Virus record (IMG/VR): IMGVR_UViG_3300050821_005869
Location: 1 to 28,855 of that record
Source of the DNA: a virus
Length of the DNA stretch: 28,855 nt
Strand: one strand, 5' to 3'
A program made the translations under genes and the position numbers. The notes under the pieces are model-generated. The model was not told the DNA's origin. It made no database searches and worked only from the letters and a program-made list of their open reading frames with translations. Below, piece by piece: positions 4,784 through 15,884 of the stretch (position 1 is its first letter; each line of letters begins with the position of its first letter).

Positions 4784-5794
4784 TTATGCAACTCTATAAA
4801 TTTCAAATTGTAGAGGCGAGAATCTTAAGTCGATATTGATTCCTGTTCCTCCACCACTAGCCTCGCATATAAAAACTTCAAAAGTCTGATTGCCGTTTGA
4901 GCCATAAGTAAAAAGCCCGTCTAAGGTCATCAATAGAGTGGCTGAGTTAGTATTACCGATGAAAAATTGTTCCAAAGATGTTGTCGTACCATCGTTTATT
5001 GCAGCCGTAGGGACATAAGTGATAATAGCAGAGGTTGAAATCCAAGCTTTTATTCTGACTAGATAAGTGCCTGCTAGAAGACCGTTAACAGTAAAAGTAC
5101 AATGCTGTGCTGCTGTAGTTTGTATAACTCCAAAATCAGCCGGCCCCGCGACTGTAACTATTCTAGCAGGGGCAGTACCTAAAAAGGGATTACCGCAAGA
5201 AACTAAAGTTGACGAAGACGTTTGCCAAAAAGTTCCACTTGTTAAAGGCATATAAGCGGCACCAACTAGATAAGCGACTGGTGTCCAAACCGGTAAACCA
5301 GATTGAGGGATAAGCGCAGTACCGTTGGCTCCTATTGGAAGTCTTTTTGTGTTACCGTTTACATCACCATAAATTAAATCCCCTGATGCGGTCATGATTT
5401 CACCGCCGACTACTTTCCAGTTGGTGTTATCCCCCGCAGGCGGGTTGTTTAAATTAGTATCAACTCTCGACATGTAGATGACGCCGGAAACTTGTGCAAA
5501 ACTTCCAGTATAATAAGTGGTACCTGCGTTCCACTCAGCAGTCCCAGCTTGCATGATGTAAGCTATTTGATAAGCATAGAGGTAGCAAAGCGCGTTCATA
5601 TCTTCAATGGCTGGGCTGTTCCCGCCAAGCACCGCACTAAACCAGCCCTCTAAATAATTTGATAAAGATTGAATCACGTCGGGGTCAGTGGTGAAAAGGG
5701 GTGAAGCTGCTGCTAAACTCCCAAACTCTGCGATTTCTTGGAACCCAGATGTTGACCCGAAAATCTTTGCTGCTTTTCGTAATATCTTTGACAT
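4784..5794 (-). CDS. tail fibre or receptor-binding protein
   Basis: The protein has 336 residues. The N-terminus (GSLAAASPLFTTDPDVIQSL) resembles the baseplate-attachment segment of phage tail fibres. It is followed by a carbohydrate-binding-module-like stretch with paired aromatics (AEWNAGTTYYTGSFAQVSGV, then a TNWKVVG turn) typical of chitin-binding type 5/12 modules. The remainder is a Gly/Thr/Ser-rich beta region ending in a predicted jelly-roll-like tip (RFSPLQFEIYRVA). It is the first gene after the baseplate genes, the usual place for a fibre. A strong Shine-Dalgarno (aaaaaaggggtatta) precedes the ATG. Confidence 0.8.
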   Translation of the reverse strand: MSKILRKAAKIFGSTSGFQEIAEFGSLAAASPLFTTDPDVIQSLSNYLEGWFSAVLGGNSPAIEDMNALCYLYAYQIAYIMQAGTAEWNAGTTYYTGSFAQVSGVIYMSRVDTNLNNPPAGDNTNWKVVGGEIMTASGDLIYGDVNGNTKRLPIGANGTALIPQSGLPVWTPVAYLVGAAYMPLTSGTFWQTSSSTLVSCGNPFLGTAPARIVTVAGPADFGVIQTTAAQHCTFTVNGLLAGTYLVRIKAWISTSAIITYVPTAAINDGTTTSLEQFFIGNTNSATLLMTLDGLFTYGSNGNQTFEVFICEASGGGTGINIDLRFSPLQFEIYRVA

Positions 5795-5809: not shown

Positions 5810-6742
5810 TTAATTAAGTGCGTCTTTATAAGATAACCACGGTGAAGCCATACTGTAGCTTGCGTAGTTGTTAAACCCAGTCACATTAAAACCAGCAACT
5901 TCATAAGATCTGAATCCAAAAAGTGACGTAATATTTGGCGCAAAAATAACGCTACCGAGTTGAACAGCCATCGGTTTCGGTAAAGTCCCGCTTGTAACAA
6001 ATATCTGAGCAAGTTGTTGACTACCAATATTTGAATTTAAAAAGTAACTCATTCTCATGTCTTTGTAATCAAACACCAAAACAGAGCCGTTAAAATACTG
6101 ATGTAAAAAGTCTTGGATAGTTGCAAGAGAGCTACCCGAACTATTTTTAATAATCGTCATGCGAATAAATTGAAGAAAGTCGGCGTCGTTAAGTGTGATC
6201 GGAGTGCCGTTTAGCCCGTATCCGTTTCTAGTGACGTTTGCGTATTTACCGAGAACATCTAATTGAACACCTTGGGCAAGTGAGCCGCCCAGCATGTTGA
6301 AAGCGTTTTGCACTGATAGAGGTAATTGAACGTCAGTCTCAGTGACTATAGGTGTCGTCGTAACTCCACTCGTGGTTAGAGTGTTATTTGAAATTAAAAG
6401 TAAAGTGGCTACAGGTGGAACACCCACGAAACTCACCACTAGAGCGCCGCTCGCGATGCTGCCAGAAACGGTCACACTTCCTAAGCCGGTTAATAACTGA
6501 AGTGCTGTTTGAATGGTAGAAGCTGAATCATTCCAGTTGAGTGTTCCGGTTGTGAAGGCCCCGTAAGTTAATTTGAAAGTTCCGGCTGTTGGGACGGGCG
6601 AGAAAGAAATAGTCTGCTGCGTAGTCTGAGGCATCAGAACATTTTTCACAACAGCTTGTATGTTTGCGTAAGCTCTCGGTTGTCCGATATACTGGAGAAT
6701 CAAAAGACCCGCGTAGTAATTAATTAATTCTTGGGTGGTCAT
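5810..6742 (-). CDS. DUF2612-like baseplate/tail protein with inserted beta domain
   Basis: The N-terminal ~42 residues and residues 138-310 match a baseplate wedge protein that follows baseplate J in Mu-like and related myoviruses (DUF2612-like, P2 gpI position). Motifs include LLILQYIGQPRAYANIQAVV, DVLGKYANVTRNGYGLNG and FLQFIRMTIIKNSS. Between them, residues ~43-137 are a separate domain (GTFKLTYG, LNWNDSASTIQTAL, VTVSGSIASG) that recurs in baseplate J and sheath of this phage. The inserted domain interrupts the family fold and probably protrudes from the baseplate. Confidence 0.75.
   Translation of the reverse strand: MTTQELINYYAGLLILQYIGQPRAYANIQAVVKNVLMPQTTQQTISFSPVPTAGTFKLTYGAFTTGTLNWNDSASTIQTALQLLTGLGSVTVSGSIASGALVVSFVGVPPVATLLLISNNTLTTSGVTTTPIVTETDVQLPLSVQNAFNMLGGSLAQGVQLDVLGKYANVTRNGYGLNGTPITLNDADFLQFIRMTIIKNSSGSSLATIQDFLHQYFNGSVLVFDYKDMRMSYFLNSNIGSQQLAQIFVTSGTLPKPMAVQLGSVIFAPNITSLFGFRSYEVAGFNVTGFNNYASYSMASPWLSYKDALN
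6332..6616 (-). repeat. shared beta domain A, copy in DUF2612-like protein
   Basis: Residues ~43-137 of the DUF2612-like protein. Shared positions are AGTFKLTY, LNWND, IQTAL, GL, VTVSGSI, VSFVGV and NNTL. This copy and the sheath copy both begin with a T-x-SF/TFS-x-x-P segment, so their boundaries agree. Confidence 0.75.
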
Positions 6743-6752
6743 ACGCTCCTTA

Positions 6753-8435
6753 TCAATTCACTGCCACTGCGGCAGTAGCAGAATTCCCCAAAACATCCAC
6801 GACGGTTAACTGATCAGTAGATGGTGTCGTCCCAGCGGTATATAAACCTGTTGAAGTATTTATGGACCCACCTGAGTTGTTTATCGAAATAGAATAAGTC
6901 AAAGTGCCATACCCACCTAAGCCAGTAAATTGTTTTGTGCCGGAAGTTGCAACGGTCGCGGTTGAAGGAGACAAAATCATTGGCACTATAACTATGTTCG
7001 CGGCTTCGATTGTAAACTGATTTTTCTTTGAAGTTGGTGTCAATGTCGGTTCATAGTCTTCATCGTAAGAAAAAGTAATGGCAACAGAGCCGCCAGTCTG
7101 AAGACTGTTATTCGTAACGTAGATAATCCCGAGTGCTGAAGTGAGTAAGGACAGATCGATAGTTAAGATTTTACTAGAAATACTGCCCGTAACATTCGCG
7201 ACACTAAGACCACTCACGGCCCTTATTTTTGTTTGAATTGTCCCGATAACGTCATTCCAGTTTATCGATGCGGAAAGATTCCCGTTATAACTAATCTTAA
7301 AAGATCCACTCGCCGCAACATCTGAAAGATTTAGAATTTGAGTTTTAGCTTCACTGAACCCAGCGTTTGTCACTAAACAGTTTGAATCTATATCCTGAAC
7401 TTGAGTCGCGAGGTGGTTAATATCAACTTCCTGGTTAACTCCAGGAGTGAAACTTGTTACCAGCCCTGCCCTCACAGCAGCAATATTTGGGGCATTAACA
7501 CCGTCAATGGAACTAGCTGTAAAAGTAATGAAGAGATTTTCAGGTACAACGAAATCCCACACCACTATGAAAGGACTTCCGTCTACTTGAGTTATAGTGA
7601 ACGAAGTTTGGCCAAATAACCCACAGCCAGCGTTTCGTTTCGTGTAGATGGCATTCGCTATATCTGAGCTAGACGCAGTCCCGTCAATGATAACCCAAAT
7701 TGAATGACCTGGGACCCCGTCACCGTTCGTAGAGCCAGTATTATTCTCATAGACAAAAGCTGAAATGACACCGTTTATGTTTTGAAGAGCAGCGAGAAGG
7801 CCAGCTAAATAACCTTGAGAAGCAAGCGAGACTGATTTTTGCCTTCTGACTTTTAGATTTGCGTCGCTTTCTTCATTTAGCCCTAATGTCGTATAAGTTG
7901 TCGGGTTATTAATTGAAGTTACTCCTAGAACTACAGTAACTGGCACCGTAATAGTGTTCGGCACCGTTAAGTTTGCCCCAGGTAAAGCGGCTTGAAAAGC
8001 GTAGGCTACAGTCCCAGGGCCTACACCTAATTGAGTAGTCTGAAGTTGCCAGTTATTTCCGGCGTTATCGGCGACGGTAAAGACTGGCTGAGCAGTTTGA
8101 TCTAAGCCGTAAAGGTTCACTGACTGAGATAAAACTAAAGTGACGTTTGTTATGGTGAACGTGCCAGCTTGTCTTTGAATACCGTTAATCGCTACACGTT
8201 GATCGAGTACGACGCCTATCGCGTTATCAGGGTCAAACGAGTTATAGATTTGTACGAGTAAATCTTGAAGGTCGAGGTTCGCTTGAATGAAAATATTTAT
8301 AAGTTGTCCGTCTGGAGAATCAGACGCTAAGTTAATATCAGCGCCATAAATTTGTTGAAGATCGGCGGTGTACTGAGCTAAAAGCTCGGCTTGTGTCGCA
8401 GTCGTTAATCCTGTAGGCCCAATCGCGTTTGGCAT
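6753..8435 (-). CDS. baseplate J-like protein with two extra C-terminal domains
   Basis: Residues 1-~370 are a baseplate J-like wedge protein (Mu gp47/P2 J type). It shows the N-terminal segment (LAQYTADLQQIYGADINLAS), SPDGQLINIF, and the central ESDANLKVRRQKSV motif shared by this family. Residues ~373-458 repeat the inserted domain seen in the DUF2612-like protein (SGSFKISYNG, INWNDVIGTIQ, NVTGSI). Residues 491-560 are an Ig-like domain (SINTSTGLYTAG, DQLTVVDVLG) also found at the N-terminus of the neck protein at 15141-15884. At 560 aa it is longer than typical J proteins because of these additions. Confidence 0.88.
   Translation of the reverse strand: MPNAIGPTGLTTATQAELLAQYTADLQQIYGADINLASDSPDGQLINIFIQANLDLQDLLVQIYNSFDPDNAIGVVLDQRVAINGIQRQAGTFTITNVTLVLSQSVNLYGLDQTAQPVFTVADNAGNNWQLQTTQLGVGPGTVAYAFQAALPGANLTVPNTITVPVTVVLGVTSINNPTTYTTLGLNEESDANLKVRRQKSVSLASQGYLAGLLAALQNINGVISAFVYENNTGSTNGDGVPGHSIWVIIDGTASSSDIANAIYTKRNAGCGLFGQTSFTITQVDGSPFIVVWDFVVPENLFITFTASSIDGVNAPNIAAVRAGLVTSFTPGVNQEVDINHLATQVQDIDSNCLVTNAGFSEAKTQILNLSDVAASGSFKISYNGNLSASINWNDVIGTIQTKIRAVSGLSVANVTGSISSKILTIDLSLLTSALGIIYVTNNSLQTGGSVAITFSYDEDYEPTLTPTSKKNQFTIEAANIVIVPMILSPSTATVATSGTKQFTGLGGYGTLTYSISINNSGGSINTSTGLYTAGTTPSTDQLTVVDVLGNSATAAVAVN
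7062..7319 (-). repeat. shared beta domain A, copy in baseplate J
   Basis: Residues ~373-458 of baseplate J. Shared positions are SGSFKISY, INWND followed by IQ, GL, NVTGSI, and NNSL near the end. It is homologous at protein level to the copies at 6332-6616 and 14570-14842; the DNA has diverged. Confidence 0.75.
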
Positions 8436-13702: not shown

Positions 13703-15124
13703 TTAAGCGTTAACGTACACGATGACCGAAGATTTCTGTATTGCGCCTGCTTCTTTAAAAGCGATTTGCACGAGTGGAGCTTTTCGGGCAGCCCTGTCAG
13801 TTTGGGATTGTTGCGAAATCGGTATCGAAAAAATGTAGTATCCACGTTGAGAAATATTCGCCAAGAAATCTTTTTGATTTCCGAAGGTGGTCGAACTATT
13901 CCACTGACCAGGCGCTCCGTATTGATTGGTGATACCTTGTTCACAAATATTTCTATAGGCACCTTTGAGCCCGTCAACACCTGATTCGGTCTGTGGGATC
14001 TTCGTTGAGCTTTCTGCTAAGTAGTTAAAGCCCGCAACTTGGAGAGCGCCAACAAACCATTGAAGATTATAAGCTTGATCGAAGAATTTATTTGCACCTG
14101 AACAGAATACTTTCGCGACACCTTGTAGAGACACGTAGGTATCAGCGCCCGCGAGAAGTGCTTCGTTCAAAATAGTTTGAGTCATAGTTGGATCAGGTTG
14201 AACACCGATCAGATCTTTTAGATGCATCGTTTGAGTGGTGTTACTTCCACTGAAGTCAGTTGATAAAGCCCGACCTGCGTAAGAAGCCATCATAACGATA
14301 TCGTTTAAAGCAACTGAATCACCGTAGTAAAGACCGCGCATCTGAGTGAAGTCACCCGTTCTTAACATATCGATCATGCCACCTGACTGAATATCGGCCT
14401 CAGTGTGAGAGACGGCAAAACCAATCTTATTAAGCGGTTGAATGATGGCGGCTGCGGCAAGAAGATCCGTTTGACCAATTTCAGCGCAGGTTTGGTTAAC
14501 CATGCAGCCGAAGTATTGAATAAGATCTTTTGTTCTCGTAACGGCTGCGCCCCAAGTTTCACCTGCGACGGATTGAGCGACGGTGATGGTGATACTTCCG
14601 TTAAGAGTGTTACTTGTGATGGTGGCTAAAGAAAGAAGCCCATAGACTCCTGCGAACTGAACTGTTAAAAGTTCACCCGCTATAGAACCAGTTACCAAAA
14701 CTTCACTGAGCCCAGGCATAGCTTGAAGTTTTGCTTGTACCATAGCTGCGGTATCATTCCAGTTAATCGCTGCGGAAGCATGTCCACCATAATTAAATAC
14801 GAAAGTTCCACTAGCAGGTGCAGCTGAGAATGTTAACGTTTGAGATTCAACCGTCAAAAGAATGACAGCTAAATACCCGCCACCGGCTAGAATGTTCGGC
14901 TGTTGAGAGAAGATAGCGTTTGCCATCGCGAAAGTTTTTGAGCTTGTTCCGAAGTCAACGCCTACTTGAGAAGGGTCAAGGTAAAGAGAATACCCTAAAC
15001 TTCCAAAACTCATTGCGGGAATTTCATCGGTAAATACCGCGAGATTACTTGTATTATAGTCTCCAATACCTGCTTGAGCCGCTGAGACTGAGATGTTGAT
15101 TACGTTTGTGAGTTCTAATTGCAT
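13703..15124 (-). CDS. contractile tail sheath protein with inserted beta domain
   Basis: The 473-residue protein starts with INISVSAAQAGIGDYNTSNL and SLYLDPSQVGVDFGTSSKTF, as in DUF3383-type tail sheaths. It ends with SQQSQTDRAARKAPLVQIAF and GAIQKSSVIVYVNA, the interlocking C-terminal strand. Between them, after NILAGGGYLAVILL, residues ~95-185 are domain A (SGTFVFNYGG, INWNDTAAMVQ, LVTGSI), followed by the sheath core (GETWGAAVTRTKDLIQYFGC). Similar insertions in sheaths project outward. It lies 20 nt from the tube gene. Confidence 0.88.
   Translation of the reverse strand: MQLELTNVINISVSAAQAGIGDYNTSNLAVFTDEIPAMSFGSLGYSLYLDPSQVGVDFGTSSKTFAMANAIFSQQPNILAGGGYLAVILLTVESQTLTFSAAPASGTFVFNYGGHASAAINWNDTAAMVQAKLQAMPGLSEVLVTGSIAGELLTVQFAGVYGLLSLATITSNTLNGSITITVAQSVAGETWGAAVTRTKDLIQYFGCMVNQTCAEIGQTDLLAAAAIIQPLNKIGFAVSHTEADIQSGGMIDMLRTGDFTQMRGLYYGDSVALNDIVMMASYAGRALSTDFSGSNTTQTMHLKDLIGVQPDPTMTQTILNEALLAGADTYVSLQGVAKVFCSGANKFFDQAYNLQWFVGALQVAGFNYLAESSTKIPQTESGVDGLKGAYRNICEQGITNQYGAPGQWNSSTTFGNQKDFLANISQRGYYIFSIPISQQSQTDRAARKAPLVQIAFKEAGAIQKSSVIVYVNA
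14570..14842 (-). repeat. shared beta domain A, copy in tail sheath
   Basis: Residues ~95-185 of the sheath protein. Shared positions with the copies in baseplate J and the DUF2612-like protein are SGTFVFNYGG, INWND, a Q-x-K-L helix, GL, VTGSI, VQFAGV and SNTL. The flanking sequence is ordinary sheath, so this is a domain insertion. Confidence 0.75.
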
Positions 15125-15140
15125 TTATCTAATCCTCCAA

Positions 15141-15884
15141 TTAAGGTTCTGTTGTAACAGCGACCGCCGAGAAGTCGTCATAGTACGGAACGGCTTTTGT
15201 TTTTACAAAGAAATACTGCAAAGCAACCGAGATGTTAAATCGGTAAGGTATCGCAGCCCCGTCTTGATTCGAGAGATTTACGAACTGAGACCCAGGTGGG
15301 AGCTTTCCGATATAAAAGCTATTTCCTTCTTGCTGCGACTGAGCGTAGTTACTTTCGAGAGCTAAAATAACTTCTTCTTTTCTATCCCTAGCTTCAGGTC
15401 CACGACTGATTATATCCACCTGCAAAAGCGCATACATATTCACGGATTGAATAGCGTCGCCGGTCGCTCCATTAAAACTATTGGTGTTAGCGAAAGGTTT
15501 ACATGAAAGAACGGATACGGCGACGTAAAGACCGCTATCGGTGGGCTGCATTATTTTCTGGTCCCATAAATAGACACGACCGTTCGCGAGCCCTAATTCT
15601 TTCTGAATGATATCACAGAAAAGTAAAAGCGGAGTGCCGACCATGATTTGTGAAGAAGCGATGGCACCTAGAGAATCAACCACTTGAATAGTATCAAAGA
15701 TTTGTTTTGGTGTATCGGTCACGGATAGGGGAGCAGTGTAAATGCCCGTTGAAGAATTGATCGTCCCGCCCGCGCCATTCGCTCTCACCGTGTAAACGTA
15801 AGGGGCAGTGCCACCAATCCCTAAGAATGAAGCCGTTAATCCTACACCTAAAGCCGTCTTAGTTTGAGTGAGAGATAAACTCAT
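15141..15884 (-). CDS. neck/tail terminator-type protein with N-terminal Ig-like domain
   Basis: Residues 1-83 are a beta domain (GGTINSSTGIYTAPL, TIQVVDSLGAIA) clearly related to the last domain of baseplate J in this phage. Residues ~84-247 (QKELGLANGRVYLWDQKIMQ, MYALLQVDIISRGPEARDRK, YRFNISVALQYFFVKTKAVP) resemble phage neck terminator proteins that cap the tail tube and join it to the head. It lies immediately upstream of the sheath gene in transcription order, as expected. Its ATG overlaps the previous stop. Confidence 0.7.
   Translation of the reverse strand: MSLSLTQTKTALGVGLTASFLGIGGTAPYVYTVRANGAGGTINSSTGIYTAPLSVTDTPKQIFDTIQVVDSLGAIASSQIMVGTPLLLFCDIIQKELGLANGRVYLWDQKIMQPTDSGLYVAVSVLSCKPFANTNSFNGATGDAIQSVNMYALLQVDIISRGPEARDRKEEVILALESNYAQSQQEGNSFYIGKLPPGSQFVNLSNQDGAAIPYRFNISVALQYFFVKTKAVPYYDDFSAVAVTTEP

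Follow-up and report, generated by a model that had tools for sequence, protein, structure and literature searches.

Copies of one Bxb1-type domain interrupt the sheath and both baseplate wedge-triplex proteins of a contractile-tailed phage

Three tail proteins carry copies of one module

The window, a 28,855-base virus record, contains phage head and contractile-tail genes on the minus strand. Three of its tail proteins, a DUF2612-like baseplate wedge protein, baseplate J and a DUF3383 sheath, each contain one copy of the same module of ~90 residues. We read the module as a promiscuous, outward-facing accessory virion domain that most likely serves low-affinity binding to the host surface (probability of this reading as a whole about 0.6). 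The relevant features are as follows.

4784..5794, minus strand: tail fibre gene adjoining the DUF2612 gene (phrog_20878, tail fibre, E 7.9e-12)
5810..6742, minus strand: DUF2612-like baseplate wedge protein, 310 aa, relative of XM1 gp17 (PF11041, E 4.7e-11)
6326..6616, minus strand: module copy D, residues 43-138 of the DUF2612-like wedge protein, between the N-terminal helices and the conserved core (HMM and alignment)
6753..8435, minus strand: baseplate J wedge protein, 560 aa, relative of XM1 gp16 and E217 gp44 (phrog_6, E 1.2e-33)
6756..6968, minus strand: a different Ig-like domain (GG-x-IN-x-STG-x-YTA) at the J C-terminus (sequence; alignment to phi1422 J)
7053..7343, minus strand: module copy in baseplate J, residues 365-461 (alignment and HMM)
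13703..15124, minus strand: DUF3383 contractile tail sheath, 473 aa, relative of XM1 gp6 (PF11863, E 1e-35)
14558..14845, minus strand: module copy S, sheath residues 94-189, in the slot of the external sheath extension domain (alignment and HMM)
15645..15884, minus strand: GG-x-IN-x-STG-x-YTA Ig-like motif at the N-terminus of a neck/terminator-like protein (sequence)

Structure comparison matched the DUF2612 core (residues 148-266) to the wedge protein XM1 gp17 (7kh1_A2, Z 10.6). Baseplate J matched 7kh1_A5 (E 1.7e-17) and 8env_J (E 7.3e-11) in the PDB. The best match of the sheath was the XM1 sheath gp6 (7kh1_A6, E 1e-39, structure Z 25.2).

The earlier note had claimed that a domain interrupts the DUF2612-like protein and that its pattern recurs in baseplate J and the sheath, so that homologous modules lie in three different tail parts. 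Alignment and HMM comparison bore this out. The pairwise alignment scores of the three copies were 150, 189 and 179, whereas 1000 shuffles gave means of 33-36 and maxima of 60-67; the scores exceeded the shuffles by 19-24 standard deviations, and no shuffle came near. Invariant columns of the three-copy alignment include G12, F14, NWND27-30, Q36, GL44-45, GSI52-54 and N78-x-L80. Separate profiles were built for the copies in each host protein, from 18 DUF2612, 20 J and 11 sheath sequences. All three profile-profile comparisons were significant, with E values of 1.1e-36, 3.6e-38 and 5.9e-41 over 88-90 columns; the non-significant comparison that the earlier note had named as refuting its claim thus did not occur. 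Together with the shuffles, they ruled out chance similarity of the three segments.

A search at E values up to 10 found no fourth copy in the 28.9-kb record, and the adjoining tail fibre gene carries none. Because the record is a virus fragment, more copies are possible in the missing part. The GG-x-IN-x-STG-x-YTA motif is unrelated to the module; it is common to two tail genes in the window and in Bdellovibrio phage phi1422. The window J matched the phi1422 neck/terminator-like protein at E 4e-7.

The module has an alpha/beta fold

The DUF2612-like protein was modelled with AlphaFold2 using 21 homologues, and a second model was made for the sheath; the J module was followed by its sequence. 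In the DUF2612-like model, pLDDT was mostly 77-91 over residues 41-130 and uneven in the rest (mean 67). The module consists of strands, one helix (residues 74-82) and further strands, so the term beta domain, used in the earlier note, has to be replaced by alpha/beta module. The sheath model had pLDDT of 87-97 throughout the module and low confidence beyond residue 400. Its module repeats the strand and helix order of the DUF2612 module.

Conserved residues in the DUF2612-like protein were G54, F56, N69-W70-N71-D72, Q78, V92, G94, N120 and L122. The NWND motif is placed at the strand-to-helix turn. Most conserved columns fall in the core or at turns, and variation is greatest in the loop 108-113. 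No catalytic signature was seen. The conserved residues look structural, suggesting a scaffold with a variable edge rather than an enzyme.

The module shares family and fold with Bxb1 surface domains

A profile search of the PDB found three stretches of the tail-tip cage protein gp23 of mycobacteriophage Bxb1 (E 2.7e-31), the Bxb1 major capsid protein (E 1.4e-10) and the Bxb1 tail tube (E 2.9e-6). Patience gp22 followed at E 0.02; outside tailed phages, no match was better than E 0.24. Structure comparison of the module region in the DUF2612-like model gave the same relatives: Bxb1 gp23 (Z 13.3, rmsd 2.3 Å, 101 residues), the Bxb1 capsid protein (Z 11.7, rmsd 2.0 Å, 87 residues), the Bxb1 tail tube (Z 11.0) and Patience gp22 (Z 10.0). 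With the sheath model, Foldseek also recovered the Bxb1 domains. Thus, the module and the Bxb1-type surface domains share a significant profile match and the same fold over the whole module.

Other comparisons gave weaker matches. Among 85 members scanned, Pfam and NCBIfam gave no convincing match to the module. The named domains that appeared were scattered and weak, for example Formyl_trans_C (10 members, best 0.009) and BclA_C (4 members, best 9e-4), and fell short of a level that we would accept. Ig-like Pfam families gave one weak Big_4 match (E 0.015) among the 85 modules and none that was significant, and immunoglobulin-type chains matched the module region at Z 4-5 only. We do not claim kinship with the outer domains of FliD and flagellin, which matched at Z 4-6 only.

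The sheath copy occupies the extension-domain slot

The window sheath was aligned with those of ten named phages and with a module-less sheath (L126). The position of the module coincides exactly with that of a domain inserted in long sheaths (487-502 aa), whereas the short sheaths of EKP1, SEN34 and ZCSE2 (379-383 aa) have nothing there. In Milano, the external sheath extension domain spans residues 91-203 (PMC10811340); in E217, the structural match lies at residues 91-208, and the window module spans 94-189. The second tier of structure matches comprised the sheath domains at ~91-208 of A-1(L), Mu, Milano and E217, with Z 5.8-7.0, a range (under 8) that may mean a common arrangement. The profile match of the module to ordinary extension-domain inserts was weak (hhalign probability 18%).

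Distribution and insertion sites

The earlier note had proposed looking for the module in other phages, and it turned out to be present in many. A first scan of viral contigs gave 77 loci, and a scan of genome contigs gave two. An iterated HMM search found the module more than 100 times, chiefly in J, DUF2612 and sheath families. Annotated phages carry it in mycobacteriophage major and minor tail proteins, in the sheath of phi1422 and in a Microcystis phage protein. The last is a 251-aa protein (L083, 7824-8576) whose gene lies between those of an SppA-like protease and the major capsid protein, where a head decoration protein is usually encoded. A large family of phage proteins of ~310-325 aa has the module near residues 62-156 (L044, L045, L047, L051-L053, L056-L062, L066, L072, L074-L077); the one member scanned, L058, had no Pfam match and had PHROG matches over the module only. 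A 2029-aa open frame of Sphingorhabdus rigui (L085, 2099-8185) contains three module copies and RTX calcium-binding repeats, indicating that the module also occurs in a bacterial surface-type protein.

We surveyed 19 related records, each with all three host genes. J and DUF2612 both had the module in 12 and both lacked it in six. In the remaining record, G021, DUF2612 had it at a site ~14 residues downstream of the usual one, and J lacked it despite a 68% identical core. Sheaths had two copies in seven records, one in nine and none in three. Where there were two, they were at two different sites, not in tandem. The three module-less sheaths (G005, G013, G022) had flanks of 67-70% identity and a sheath core 68-71% identical to that of the window. 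Close relatives thus lack the module exactly, which indicates that it interrupts its host proteins cleanly. Distinct insertion sites numbered two in the sheath, at least three in J-type proteins and two in DUF2612, and J-type proteins of other phages had the module at further sites (L027, L040, L050, L071).

The nearest isolated phage found was Bdellovibrio phage phi1422. Its tail genes are syntenic with those of the window, and its sheath, with 44% identity across the protein, has the module in the same place. Its J and DUF2612 (gp66) proteins cleanly lack the module, whereas the window phage has both copies.

History of the copies

In the module tree, copies from the same host protein and site fell together, whatever their genome. 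Support was 98/80 for the DUF2612 copies and 99/81 for most J copies. Recent gene conversion or fresh copying was rejected for this group: each window copy was closest to the same-site copy of another phage (58-71% identity), against ~30-44% to the other copies in its own genome. The earlier note had suggested domain copying within one genome. This is partly supported. The J and DUF2612 copies were sisters, together separated from the sheath copies with 90/93, a value that is not decisive; the grouping by host protein indicates that the transfers are old, so that any copying took place in an ancestor.

The J-core tree placed the records with J and DUF2612 modules in one clade (90/94), a clade that the less resolved DUF2612 and sheath trees did not recover. 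The J-core clade is consistent with one joint gain of the two copies. In the sheath tree, the three sheaths without the module grouped together with support (96/94), which fits a single loss. Most simply, an old sheath copy would have spread once to the neighbouring J and DUF2612 genes, with loss and a further gain in the sheath afterwards. The direction of copying among hosts, possibly from sheath to J and DUF2612, is read from only 90 columns, and AU tests did not favour one source of the J and DUF2612 copies. For the G021 DUF2612 copy, the tree position suggested an origin from its own sheath, and grouping with the other DUF2612 copies was not rejected (AU p 0.55); we claim for it only a different insertion site.

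Where the module came from admits two further accounts. It may be the lineage's own sheath extension domain, diverged and later copied into J and DUF2612. We regard this as a tentative but serious minority possibility. The slot and motif layout are as in the sheath inserts of PSTCR3, Ab105-1phi, Aaphi23, PP270 and BgManors32, and every record without J and DUF2612 copies, including phi1422, has a sheath copy. The structural similarity to the sheath domains of A-1(L), Mu, Milano and E217 is moderate and, as noted, in a range that may mean a common arrangement, and the Bxb1 domains match the module far better than the sheath inserts do. Such an origin would be compatible with either function, adhesion or stabilisation. 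Less probable, and in our view unlikely, is separate capture, in which the host proteins took their modules from different phages and none was copied inside the genome. Wide occurrence in unrelated phages fits such captures, as do the clearly separate sites in the G021 DUF2612 and in J of L027/L040/L050 and L071. In this phage group, however, the tree joins the J and DUF2612 copies as sisters and places them beside the sheath copies, away from most other hosts.

Proposed function

The module is present in three tail parts, in other combinations in relatives and, by precedent, on the capsid and tail of Bxb1; it is therefore best read as a reusable outer-surface domain. The three segments would be copies of one accessory, outward-facing domain of the Bxb1 capsid, tail-tube and tip-cage family. 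We infer the outward position from the sheath slot and from Bxb1, and by the same analogies a surface function shared by the copies is plausible. By analogy with the glycan-binding Ig-like domains of Douge, and from the slot, repeated low-affinity binding of host-surface polymers seems the module's most likely job, at about even odds.

With the sheath copy in the external extension slot, as the alignment places it, each sheath ring should bear six copies along the tail. The 370-aa tape measure corresponds, by a rule of thumb, to an estimated 14 rings or so and about 80 sheath copies. The remaining copies sit in the wedge-triplex proteins, J (expected at two per wedge) and DUF2612 (one per wedge). 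In E217, each of six triplexes has two gp44 and one gp45. With stoichiometry taken from other phages, the rim would hold an estimated 12 J and 6 DUF2612 copies. The wedge protein gp45 of E217 serves as the anchor of the tail fibre (PMC10329688), and BW3, the corresponding wedge protein, is where receptor-binding proteins are attached in the majority of baseplates studied (PMC10811340). The E217 fibre gene follows gp45 (PMC10329688), and likewise the window fibre gene follows the DUF2612 gene. The wedge copies are therefore probably near the fibre attachment. A weak grip by the modules would keep the particle on the cell while the fibres search. The insertion points are places where the host protein tolerates the exact absence of the module, as relatives show; after joint ancestral entry into J and DUF2612, possibly from an older sheath copy, vertical inheritance would have maintained it.

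The modules could instead act as structural cement, touching neighbouring subunits and so giving the extended tail stability or adjusting how it contracts, with contacts from sheath to sheath, J to DUF2612 and wedge to first sheath ring. The sheath copy could then brace neighbouring subunits instead of facing outward. The shared presence or absence in J and DUF2612 (12 and 6 of 19 records) is what partners would show, and the two are partners in the Milano (BW2)2-BW3 heterotrimer (PMC10811340). For extra domains on sheaths, roles in cementing or in modulating contraction have been put forward (PMC9230969, PMC10811340), and YSD1 tail-tube domain2 stabilises ring contacts (PMC8718954). But a single gain in adjacent genes accounts equally for the co-occurrence, sheath status is independent of J/DUF2612 status, and close relatives manage without the module in sheath, J or DUF2612. 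We consider cement a possible but less likely function. A special form, a homotypic lattice in which J, DUF2612 and sheath copies pair across subunits, link wedge and sheath and set the contraction threshold, would explain the joint gain by J and DUF2612; we hold it to be improbable.

Low-affinity surface binding, our preferred reading, has parallels in the literature. Mycobacteriophage Douge has Ig-like domains on its capsid and tube, and these bind mycobacterial cells and glycans of the cell wall (PMC13033339). For promiscuous phage Ig-like domains, weak carbohydrate binding was proposed (Fraser et al. 2006, as cited in PMC13033339). Outer domains of siphophage tubes were proposed to bind cells and glycans or to stabilise rings (PMC8718954), and a sheath survey placed additional domains away from the tube and suggested adhesion or stabilisation (PMC9230969).

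Annotation and significance

The isolated module matched PHROGs 10909, 2839, 792, 117 and 1260, families named for the major tail protein, the tail sheath and the minor tail protein, presumably since these include module-bearing proteins. Automatic annotation can thus name unrelated proteins after the module. Mycobacterium phage Sheen gp28 (entry with L082) is a "tail sheath" in RefSeq and a "minor tail protein" in GenBank. A profile model of the module (85 members, alignment A2) would make a domain without a Pfam or NCBIfam entry recognisable to annotators. The findings add the contractile sheath and baseplate wedge to the range of a surface-domain family whose known structures come from mycobacteriophages. 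Near relatives with zero, one or two sheath copies, with or without wedge copies, offer a natural experiment.

Comparison with known systems

The extension domain ("domain A") of Milano gp20, E217 gp31, Mu and A-1(L) shares the sheath slot, the outer position and a broadly similar arrangement (Z 5.8-7.0) with the module. For these four phages, we found no report of such a domain in J or DUF2612. Like the module, the Ig-like domains of phages (Big_2, FN3 and others) are small, exchangeable and scattered over unrelated structural proteins. The module differs from them in having no significant Ig-like Pfam match and a helix between its strand pairs. The glycan-binding domains of Douge are a functional analogue rather than a shown member of the sequence family. 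Mycobacterium phage Patience gp22 (PDB 8GIU) matches the whole module in structure (Z 10.0); it is a separate minor capsid protein, and its sequence match is weak (E 0.02).

Bxb1 (PDB 9D9W, 9D93) has the same family and fold, with the module on the capsid C-terminus, on the C-terminus of the tail-tube protein gp19 and three times in gp23. Like the window phage, it is one phage with the module on several virion proteins, and it repeats the module within one protein. Bxb1 is a non-contractile mycobacteriophage with C-terminal capsid and tube copies, whereas the window copies are inserted within their host proteins, a contractile sheath and both wedge-triplex proteins. The finding belongs to a known kind, the promiscuous virion-surface domains, and has a precise precedent in Bxb1.
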